DNA from: Halosolutus gelatinilyticus
GTDB taxonomy: Archaea > Halobacteriota > Halobacteria > Halobacteriales > Natrialbaceae
Length of the DNA: 64,000 nt
Direction: 5' to 3'
NCBI RefSeq assembly: GCF_023028105.1
Contig: NZ_CP095491.1
Coordinates: forward strand, 2,480,001-2,544,000
Part shown: positions 2,340-42,134 of the stretch, piece after piece
Numbering within the stretch: position 1 is the first letter of the stretch
Layout: each line of letters begins with the position of its first letter
The notes under the pieces: model-generated
Told to the model about the DNA's origin: nothing
The model's input: only the letters and a program-made list of their open reading frames with translations
Databases searched by the model: none
Position numbers and translations under genes: made by a program

Positions 2340-2435
2340 GAGCGGTCGTATTCACGAGTAGGCTATAAGACCCCCGAAACGACGCCGGCAAGTATTGATC
2401 GGCGCAAATGGGAACGCGATCGAAGCGATTGAGAT

Positions 2436-2667
2436 CACTACGAAAGCCCCTGATCCGGTCGATTCGCGCACCACACACTTCGCTCCTCGTGGTTCGAAAG
2501 ACGCGAACCGTCTTTCGTCATCACGAAACGCCCTCGGCGTTTCGAACGACCTCGCTTCGCTCGGCTCCGGTGCTTGAGGTGTCGGGCTTCGCCGACCGGA
2601 TCCGCCCCTTTCAGTCCCACCCGCGGTGGCTCGCCGACCAGCCGATACGGGTGGGGCTTTTGTGGTG
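2436..2667. repeat. MITE-like palindrome-rich element A with terminal inverted repeats
   Basis: The ends are inverted repeats: CACTACGAAAGCCCC at 2436-2450 and, in reverse complement, CACCACAAAAGCCCC at 2653-2667 (13 of 15 identical). Inside is a series of short palindromes: GAAAGACG...CGTCTTTC near 2499-2519, CGAAACGCC-ctc-GGCGTTTCG near 2524-2544, and CCCACCCG...CGGGTGG beside the right end. No coding potential explains them. A second, longer copy with nearly the same ends lies at 29869-30156. Arrangement and size (232 bp) fit a miniature inverted-repeat element, but no transposase or clear target duplication is visible. Every frame that crosses it is treated here as spurious. Confidence 0.72.
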
Positions 2668-2790
2668 TTGTCAGCGAGCCCGAATCACCCAGCGTAACTG
2701 CTGGACACGAGCGGGATTGGACCGAATCCAAAATTAGCAGCCTCGATCGAAAGCCACACCCGTTATGTTCCCGCCGCGGCGAGTGAGCGT

Positions 2791-29227: not shown

Positions 29228-29821
29228 ATGCCGGAACAGACGCTGCACTTCGATCCGATCGCGGCCCACCGACCGGTCGAGATCGACGATCAGGAACACG
29301 ACGCGGCCGTCCTCGCGCCCGTGATCGAACGCGACGGGGAGCACCACCTGCTGTTCACCCGCCGGGCCGACCACCTCGGGGAGCACCCCGGCCAGATGAG
29401 CTTCCCCGGCGGCGGCGCCGAACCGGAGGACGAGACGATCCTCGACACCGCCCTCCGCGAGGCCGACGAGGAGATCGGCCTCCGGGCGTCGGAAGCGGAG
29501 ATCGTCGGCCAACTCGACGACATCCGGACGATCACCGAGTACGCCGTCACGCCCTTCGTCGCTCGGATCCCCGATCGGGAGTACGACCGCGACGAGGACG
29601 AGGTAGCCGAGATCATCGCTCTCCCGCTGTCCGGCCTCCTCGACCCGGAGAACTACGAGTACGAGCGCCGAGACCACCCCTACTACGGCGACATCGTCAT
29701 CCACTACTTCCACGTCGACGGCTACACCGTCTGGGGCGCGACGGGTCGGATCCTCGTCCAGTTGCTCGAACTCGCGACCGACTTCGAAGCGCCTGAGAAG
29801 GTCGATCGATCGACTCTTTGA
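29228..29821 (+). CDS. Nudix hydrolase, CoA pyrophosphatase type (NudL-like)
   Basis: A 197-residue cytosolic Nudix enzyme. The Nudix box is FPGGGAEPEDETILDTALRE followed by ADEEIGL, with the metal-binding Glu cluster intact. Upstream HLLFTRRADHLGEHPGQMS is the extra NudL-type motif for CoA and derivatives, so it probably cleaves CoA, 3'-phosphoadenosine-linked or oxidised CoA compounds. It follows the DUF7109 gene by four bases and precedes element B by about 47 bases. Confidence 0.85.
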   Translation: MPEQTLHFDPIAAHRPVEIDDQEHDAAVLAPVIERDGEHHLLFTRRADHLGEHPGQMSFPGGGAEPEDETILDTALREADEEIGLRASEAEIVGQLDDIRTITEYAVTPFVARIPDREYDRDEDEVAEIIALPLSGLLDPENYEYERRDHPYYGDIVIHYFHVDGYTVWGATGRILVQLLELATDFEAPEKVDRSTL

Positions 29822-29868: not shown

Positions 29869-30156
29869 AAAACACCACGAAAGCCCCCGGTGGCTCCGGG
29901 AAGACGGGCGCAGTAAGCACCGACCGAAGTGAGGTCGTTCGAAAGACGCGGAGCGTCTTTCGTGATCTTCAAAAGAGCGCAATGCGCTCTTTTGGACCTC
30001 GCCGAGCTTCGCTCGGTTCAGCGACGAGAGACCGCGGGTCTCTCGAACCACGCGCAGCAAGCCCCTCGACCGGAGCCACCAGCCTCATTCAGTCCCACCC
30101 GTAGCAGCTGACCGGACCACCGCGGGTGGGACTGAAAGGGGCTTCCGTGGTGTTTT
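29869..30156. repeat. MITE-like palindrome-rich element B with 19-bp terminal inverted repeats
   Basis: Left end AAAACACCACGAAAGCCCC at 29869-29887; right end, reverse complement, AAAACACCACGGAAGCCCC at 30138-30156 (18 of 19 match). Just inside the right end TTCAGTCCCACCCG (30088-30101) pairs perfectly with its complement at 30123-30136. The middle is a chain of hairpins that each have a three-base loop: CGAAAGACGC-gga-GCGTCTTTCG (stem 10), CAAAAGAGCGC-aat-GCGCTCTTTTG (stem 11), CCGAGC-ttc-GCTCGG (stem 6) and CGAGAGACC-gcg-GGTCTCTCG (stem 9). Element A is its relative. No open frame is convincing. Confidence 0.8.
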
Positions 30157-30318
30157 CTATCGACTCTCTCGAACTCGCTTATCCTGAGTAATGGGAATCA
30201 ATGCGCGGAACGTCACCTTTTTGCGCGCCGGCGCCTCAGCAGGCCTATGGTCGCGCAGACGATGGATCGAGTTCCGCACCGACTGTAACTACCCGCTCGT
30301 CGCGCGAGGTGAGTTTCT

Positions 30319-31101
30319 GTGTTAACTACCTCGACCACCCTCGCCCGCGTCGGACTGGATGCGATCGCCCTCAAGCCGACCGAGTGCGACGTCTCGGCCG
30401 CCGCGTCGATGCCGATCGAGACGGTCGCGATCGACTACGAGGGCCGCGAGCACTTCCCCGACCCGGACGTCCTCGCCGATCTAGCCGACGAGACGGATGT
30501 CCGGCTGACGACGCCGGTCCGGGCCGACGGGTTCGACCCGCTCGGCGACGCGTCGCTGCTCGCGGACCTTCCGGAATCGATCGGGCGCGTGCTTGTCGCG
30601 GGACATCCCGCGTACCTCTCCGAGGAGGAACGCGCGCGAGCGGTCGCGCCGCGGCTGGGTGACGCCCTCGCGGACGACCCCGACGCGTGGGTCGGCACCG
30701 AGAGCGTCGAGCGCGTCGCCATGGCGACCGGTGCGACGCAGTACGACCTCCTCTCGCGATCGACGCCGCGGGAACTCCGGGCGCTCCGTGCGGCGGGGTT
30801 CGCCGGGGAGATCGCGGTCTACGCGCCGACGGTGTTGACGGACGACGAGGACGCCGTGCTCGACGCCGTCGGCGCCTACGTCGCCCGGCGTCGACCCGTC
30901 GCGGCCGTCCTTCCCGACGGCGCGCCGACCGATTCGAGCGCGACGGGACGTGCGAGAGACGTGCTGCTCGAGGCGGCCCGCGAGTACGCCGTCGTCGGCA
31001 CCGAAGACGAGCTCCGCGCGCAGACGGACGCGCTCCACGAGGCGGGCGCGACGACGATCGTCGGCTATCCGGCGCGCGGTATCGAGTCGCTCCGTTCTTG
31101 A
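30319..31101 (+). CDS. DUF7388-like protein
   Basis: A 260-residue protein starting with GTG (VLTTSTTLARVGLDAIALKP). Its middle and end (ATGATQYDLLSRSTPRELRA, GFAGEIAVYAPTVLTDDED and VVGTEDELRAQTDALHEAGA) look like the C-terminal part of F420-dependent or luciferase-like oxidoreductases, but it lacks a full TIM barrel. I believe it is the haloarchaeal DUF7388 family; function is unknown. Element B lies just upstream, so its promoter may be affected by the insertion. Confidence 0.65.
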   Translation: MLTTSTTLARVGLDAIALKPTECDVSAAASMPIETVAIDYEGREHFPDPDVLADLADETDVRLTTPVRADGFDPLGDASLLADLPESIGRVLVAGHPAYLSEEERARAVAPRLGDALADDPDAWVGTESVERVAMATGATQYDLLSRSTPRELRALRAAGFAGEIAVYAPTVLTDDEDAVLDAVGAYVARRRPVAAVLPDGAPTDSSATGRARDVLLEAAREYAVVGTEDELRAQTDALHEAGATTIVGYPARGIESLRS

Positions 31102-41818: not shown

Positions 41819-41907
41819 CCCACGGGACTGTTTCCGACCGATCTATATCTTCGTACCGACTCGGTCCCGTTCGCCGCCGGAGGGTCCCGTACCCCGATCG
41901 AAAACGC

Positions 41908-41975
41908 CGTGAAAGCCCCTTTCACTCCCGCCCGAAGTGGGAGTCCGATCCGACGACGCGGACGGGGCTGAAGGG
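41908..41975. repeat. Degenerate remnant related to elements A and B
   Basis: GTGAAAGCCCCTTTCACTCC at 41909-41928 resembles the left end and internal CTTTCAGTCCCACCCG of the two long elements; GGGGCTGAAGGG follows at about 41964-41975. No matching right terminal repeat is clear. It lies in the long region upstream of the thermosome gene and could be a decayed copy. Confidence 0.4.
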
Positions 41976-42134
41976 ATCCGACATTGAGCGGAAGCTTCCC
42001 AGATGCCGGCCAGGGACTTTCGTGGCGTCAGAAGCGTATTACTCGGGTGCGTAACCGACTCTCGTCCGCCTCACCGAGTTGCGCCGATCGCTTCGACGCG
42101 CAATCGCCAGACGGAGCGGCGCCGGTACAGAAAA

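Follow-up and report, generated by a model that had tools for sequence, protein, structure and literature searches.

The palindromic element at positions 29869-30156 of the window (the whole 64,000-nucleotide stretch of Halosolutus gelatinilyticus DNA that was analyzed; window coordinate 1 is 2480001 on C1) belongs to a multicopy family, which is interpreted here, with a probability of about 0.6, as a palindromic mobile element of the MITE/SMR type, non-autonomous and non-coding, with its mobilizer in trans. Counted in favor of this reading were about 39 intergenic copies in the same genome, a location between gene pairs of every orientation, and occurrence in 20 of 29 genera of the family Natrialbaceae. 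Counted against it were the lack of a clean transposition event, of a target duplication, and of a candidate transposase, together with weak compensatory change in the ends.

Window copy and nested hairpin module

The window copy begins with the left end A, a terminal inverted repeat (29869..29887, + strand; consensus AACACCACGAAAGCCCCTG), and closes with the right end A' (30138..30156, +), which pairs with A at 18 of 19 positions, as expected from the near-perfect 19-bp ends reported in the earlier note. A side-arm stem, absent from that note, is formed by GGTGGCTCCGG (29889..29899, +) and its perfect complement CCGGAGCCACC (30070..30080, +); these 11 bp enclose the entire hairpin chain. Within the arm lie two conserved arm-loop strands, GGGAAGACGGGCGCAGTAAGCAC (29898..29920, +; in inverted orientation relative to most copies) and GCGCAGCAAGCCCCTCGACCGG (30052..30073, +), and the nested hairpin module GTCGTTCG ... 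CGAACCAC (29934..30051, +), which occupies the arm's usual insertion site and is interrupted by two extra hairpins. The four triloop hairpins were recovered with the stem lengths first given for them: hairpin 1 (29940..29962, +; stem 10, loop GGA), hairpin 2 (29970..29994, +; stem 11, loop AAT, with an alternative 12+1 reading), hairpin 3 (30002..30016, +; stem 6, loop TTC), and hairpin 4 (30025..30045, +; stem 9, loop GCG). The central hairpin C, AGCCTCATTCAGTCCCACCCG ... CGGGTGGGACTGAAAGGGGCT (30081..30143, +), contains the 14-bp inner inverted repeat noted before, which is the perfect core of 21-nt arms matching at 90% (30081-30101 / 30123-30143). Since arm D is lost in this copy, the 3' stem of C and A' have GGGGC in common, and the order is the non-canonical A, inverted side arm with nested module, C, and A'. 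The orientation of the remaining arm relative to C is opposite to that of nearly all two-part (arm plus C) copies. Compared with copy L002, about 170 bp of the arm show a few substitutions plus one inverted triloop (hairpin 1, GGA to TCC), whereas the short outer stems carry several matched changes together with a one-base indel that is likewise matched.

The inverted-repeat and hairpin structure of the window copy is far above chance, as follows from its folding (z = -10.6; 0 of 200 shuffles reach the real value), from the excess of perfect triloop hairpins with stems of at least 8 in the 64-kb window (11 vs about 3 in shuffles, three of the 11 in this copy), and from the dozens of copies in the genome. 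The cargo is palindromic rather than genic, as was first supposed. To the left lies a putative NUDIX hydrolase-like gene (29228-29821), named by a sequence motif; to the right, a small conserved leader ORF precedes its downstream gene (30319-31101). This 13-codon ORF, MVAQTMDRVPHRL (30247-30288), is nearly invariant in several other genomes (L151, L155, L156, L161, and L171), where the surrounding DNA has changed, and is likely a conserved leader peptide or regulatory site.

The earlier note took the triloop chain for the design of the element. The design is instead a four-way cloverleaf whose central hairpin is conserved, and the chain is an independent module in one arm; most cloverleaf copies are without it. 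Some orthologues carry, and others lack, a block of about 58 bp (TGGTTCG, hairpin, CGTCATCACG, hairpin, CGAACGA), whose insertion point is a single side-arm place between GCGCG and CCTCAC (G022 vs G025, G024 vs G023). The window chain has the identical place and punctuation, with two additional hairpins within the middle linker. Exact matches to the module were found in 102 of 125 Natrialbaceae genomes with 0 control matches, some of them being chance coding DNA and 30 of 39 inspected being real double hairpins; the two-hairpin module is thus more widespread than the cloverleaf element. Its loops are mostly GAA/TTC, GGA/TCC, and AAA/TTT, i.e., mutual inversions. The genome of the window has five exact modules, three of them inside cloverleaf elements and one next to a tRNA gene. 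The chain is therefore a separate family of palindromes living within the cloverleaf family.

The module has the form GTSGTTCG-hairpin-CGTSATSACG-hairpin-CGAACSAC with three-base loops (examples: L266-L295, G000:C1:1176006-1176057, and 3213480-3213535), and an identical S.S mismatch is seen repeatedly in the closing stem and in the linker. At L086 (~1064-1380; G000:C1 ~3213360-3213680), a tRNA gene is followed by the two-hairpin module and, about 200 bp on, by the tRNA 3'-end repeat TTCGAATCCCATCCCCACCG; the arrangement resembles a miniature relic of tRNA-gene integration.

Cloverleaf architecture and spread of the family

The canonical form (260-275 bp) has the order A-B-C-D-A', with ends A, side arms B and D, and the central hairpin C, whose consensus is GCCCCTTTCA[T/G]TCCCACCC ... 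GGGTGGGA[A/C]TGAAAGGGGC and whose internal loop is conserved. A canonical copy modeled as single-stranded DNA folds to a four-way cloverleaf (z = -11.7), and, as the ends A enclose two side arms and C, either strand of the element can do so. A and C are conserved by sequence, and B and D, which are homologous to one another in inverted orientation, solely by self-complementarity. Across 45 full copies, complementarity of the arm stems was 85-88% within a copy vs 49-50% between copies, and in a permutation test for arm B on the same copies, 0 of 2000 permutations reached the observed complementarity. C has one strongly covarying pair (UA 17, GC 10, and CG 1 in 30 copies), and the compensatory change in A amounts to 9 paired changes at positions 3-17 vs about 4 expected.

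Compensatory stem change is usually taken as proof of functional RNA, and a transcribed cloverleaf acting as a regulator or as a processing or stability element would fit the very stable fold, the conserved C loop, and the covariation in the arms and at the one strong C pair. However, RNA from one strand is expected to tolerate G.U, not A.C, and the remaining stem mismatches are G.T 33 and A.C 31 when the strand is set by C, a comparison that is weaker if another feature sets the strand, since C can flip. As the two mismatches are equal, they point to pairing at the DNA level or a DNA mutation process rather than to a one-strand RNA. Structured RNA is further opposed by the varying orientation of C, by elements inverting in place, by neighbor genes in all orientations, and by the lack of any Rfam family at gathering score in the element, and we regard it as improbable. 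A mir-4433 match in Rfam was rejected, being under its gathering score and corresponding to the C hairpin by chance. Compensatory change without strand bias in inverting elements suggests DNA-level pairing or template switching as its cause.

Copies in the genome of the window were gathered by pattern and BLAST searches, and the totals are lower bounds: BLAST gave 51 partial matches to the window copy, and the end-pattern search with pairing gave the roughly 39 end-paired elements (68-432 bp), answering the earlier call for a copy count. Two further copies lie in the window, neither with an assigned strand: one at 2434..2669 (236 bp; C1:2482434-2482669) with a two-hairpin module at 2492-2547, and a decayed one at 41903..42029 (127 bp; C1:2521903-2522029). 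Many copies have lost C or one arm. According to a rough codon-usage gene call, all are intergenic, and occur in all four neighbor-gene configurations, with a spacing of about 40-75 bp to gene ends and of mostly 80-130 bp to gene starts. Because neighboring genes are in mixed orientations, a function as 3'-UTR or terminator was rejected.

The end pattern was detected in 51 of 125 Natrialbaceae genomes, with from 0 to about 40 copies per genome; the control, the pattern read backwards, gave near zero matches. Carriers include Natronococcus, Halopiger, Natronorubrum, Natronolimnohabitans, Natribaculum, Haloterrigena, and Salinadaptatus (all Natrialbaceae), and canonical copies of 260-275 bp occur in named genera. 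Outside Natrialbaceae the end pattern gave single matches close to the control level. Arm-plus-C relics with different or missing ends were found on plasmids of Halomarina and Salinigranum. On the Halomarina plasmid (L250, ~670-860) the relic is enclosed by inverted repeats (GTGTTTAGTTA ... TTAACTAAACAC) that seem to belong to a different haloarchaeal element carrying it. Carriage by phages was rejected: no phage record matched, and none of three virus-contig pattern matches was a canonical element.

Orthologous sites, inversion, and possible mobility

At one intergenic site in the genus that includes Haloterrigena salina, the element is present in four species (G022-G025), and relics remain in two others (the left end in G026, the right end in G027). 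Among the four orthologous copies, A is 88-100% and the outer stems of C are 92-97% identical, whereas the 60-bp flanks are 60-78% identical vs about 58% for shuffled DNA. Concerted evolution or within-genome homogenization was considered as the source of this conservation and found unsupported, because copies are hardly more alike within a genome (85% identity) than between genomes (84%).

These data bear on a second reading, in which the family is a maintained chromosomal DNA element and the cloverleaf (a cruciform on duplex DNA) is a host binding or topology site; A and C would bind a protein and the arms would need only to pair, in parallel with proposals for REP/BIME and ERIC. It is favored by the four species keeping A and C far better than the flanks at one orthologous site, by the two species with short relics (the element being intact or deleted, with little between), by paralogues hardly more alike than foreign copies, which leaves homogenization as no explanation, and by copies lying clear of promoters and coding DNA. 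Against it stand a patchy distribution (the end pattern is absent from 74 of 125 genomes, and copy number ranges as given above) and the loss of C or an arm in many copies; moreover, the depth of the analysis is one site, and copies recognizable by their ends are favored. On balance this reading is rather unlikely. A broader statement, that these are DNA elements kept as four-way cloverleafs at orthologous sites over genus-level times for a host or recombination function, with A and C held by sequence and B and D by pairing, inverting in place and accommodating another hairpin family at one fixed position, is put forward tentatively. The conservation at the orthologous site also weighs against a mobile element: a dead element should decay like its flanks, yet A and C persist at the orthologous site while the flanks diverge, so a host function is possible.

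The G023 copy is the G024 copy inverted in place. One arm of 146 bp lies on the opposite side of C as the reverse complement, at 91% identity, and the stems of the second arm differ by matched changes (ATGCGA/TCGCAT vs ACGGGA/TCCCGT). In a common insertion of G070 and G073 the arm has switched side and orientation, and the orientation of C is variable relative to arm and flanks.

Direct traces of movement were sought. The earlier note would have given way to ends of a known IS with copies as its deletion derivatives; no end pair encloses a transposase in the end list of this genome or in the other DNA examined. The flanking target duplications it proposed to look for were absent overall in 91 copies, the within-copy flank match being about equal to the cross-copy match, and no clean empty site was caught, the intergenic DNA between species being too diverged. 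The orthologous site downstream of the NUDIX gene is empty in G016 (same genus), which favors mobility, with flanks too diverged to define a junction; at the L104 site in genus g9 other inserted genes confuse the empty-site reading, and the L142 site holds relics instead. Of the 91 copies, only L097 (1499-1815) is bordered by a perfect direct repeat of 9 bp (GTCGATTCG), which could be fortuitous or a single genuine target duplication.

Descent from an IS605-type element, as in PATEs, or by deletion from another IS was also considered, PATEs being described as palindromic transposase-free haloarchaeal elements (PMC3119063). However, the terminal inverted repeats present here are absent in PATEs, and no transposase is enclosed by an end pair. 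Pfam searches of the genome of the window found neither a Y1 transposase nor an OrfB_IS605 domain, on which an IS605/PATE origin was rejected, and neither an A nor a C motif adjoins the lone TnpB zinc-ribbon fragment; we consider such an origin very improbable. This single zinc-ribbon domain lies at G000:C1:1890278-1890478, and IS605-type elements are few for a haloarchaeon.

Returning to the mobile-element reading, a recombinase or transposase acting in trans would recognize A (and possibly C) once the DNA is folded and would carry the element to intergenic positions, leaving no target duplication; we infer this because the ends enclose no transposase and IS605 enzymes are absent. After insertion, intrastrand template switching during replication would rewrite the arms, copying one stem strand onto the other, with matched double changes as the result, and would invert spacers, giving flipped triloops, C loops, arms, and whole elements. 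Template switching is described as leaving homogenized arms and inverted spacers or loops (PMC8604942, PMC8794818), and both occur here; since these are its published signatures, arm pairing is probably renewed, and spacers probably flipped, by this process. With dozens of copies per genome, some of them orthologous, arm homogenization and spacer inversion would become directly measurable in archaea, and the family offers a natural system well suited to testing how palindromes in DNA are maintained and copied. If mobile, it implies a transposition system whose enzyme is still to be found, with a second hairpin family inside the first.

Comparison with known systems

REPs are linked to Y1-type RAYT proteins, and a RAYT-type Y1 transposase was not found in the genome of the window. 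Like REP/BIME palindromes, the elements are intergenic hairpin repeats with a DNA-level structure, but REPs are only 20-40 bp long (PMC3733652). With prokaryotic MITEs, including ERIC, they share short length, intergenic location, multiple copies, inverted-repeat ends, and the absence of a gene, and ERIC is likewise a large intergenic palindrome (PMC10969869). Unlike MITEs, they have no transposase with matching ends seen, no target duplication, and a conserved multi-arm structure with arms held by complementarity only. The MITE-like character first proposed from the ends is supported, as the elements are short, non-coding, and multicopy with terminal inverted repeats; of the features of a MITE in the strict sense, target duplication, which is often but not always present, is lacking, and no transposon with matching ends was seen in the DNA examined or in the full end list of this genome.

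The literature on haloarchaeal repeats led to the Haloquadratum walsbyi study (PMC3119063). PATEs resemble the elements in being haloarchaeal, palindromic, and multicopy, with neither transposase nor target duplication (PMC3119063). Unlike PATEs, which have no terminal inverted repeats and are IS605-related (PMC3119063), the elements have ends of 17-19 bp, and the genome of the window has no intact IS605 parent with which near-terminal palindromes could be shared. The small mobile repeats SMR-A and SMR-B of H. walsbyi are about 80-110 bp long and commonly >95% similar within a type, and SMR-A use the palindromes of other elements as insertion sites (PMC3119063). The family is like them in being haloarchaeal and non-coding, with terminal inverted repeats and with unexplained mobilization; it likewise has no target duplication and is too short for a transposase. 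SMR ends are not tied to a known transposon, and no transposase-bearing element with the ends of the present family was seen in the DNA examined. Like SMR-A, the two-hairpin module inserts into a palindrome of another element. Unlike SMRs, the elements measure about 68-440 bp, have a modular cloverleaf with variable but paired side-arm stems, and occur in 20 genera; this comparison with SMRs (HqIRS40-43, HqIRS55) is by described features.

In line with the earlier note, no described family for the element was found in the papers and libraries searched; literal sequence searches of the papers returned unrelated ones only, Rfam gave none, and subscription literature and ISfinder lay outside the scope. 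New in this family, undescribed in the literature searched, is a cloverleaf with arms conserved in structure only, and by its features its nearest kind is the SMR/MITE class.
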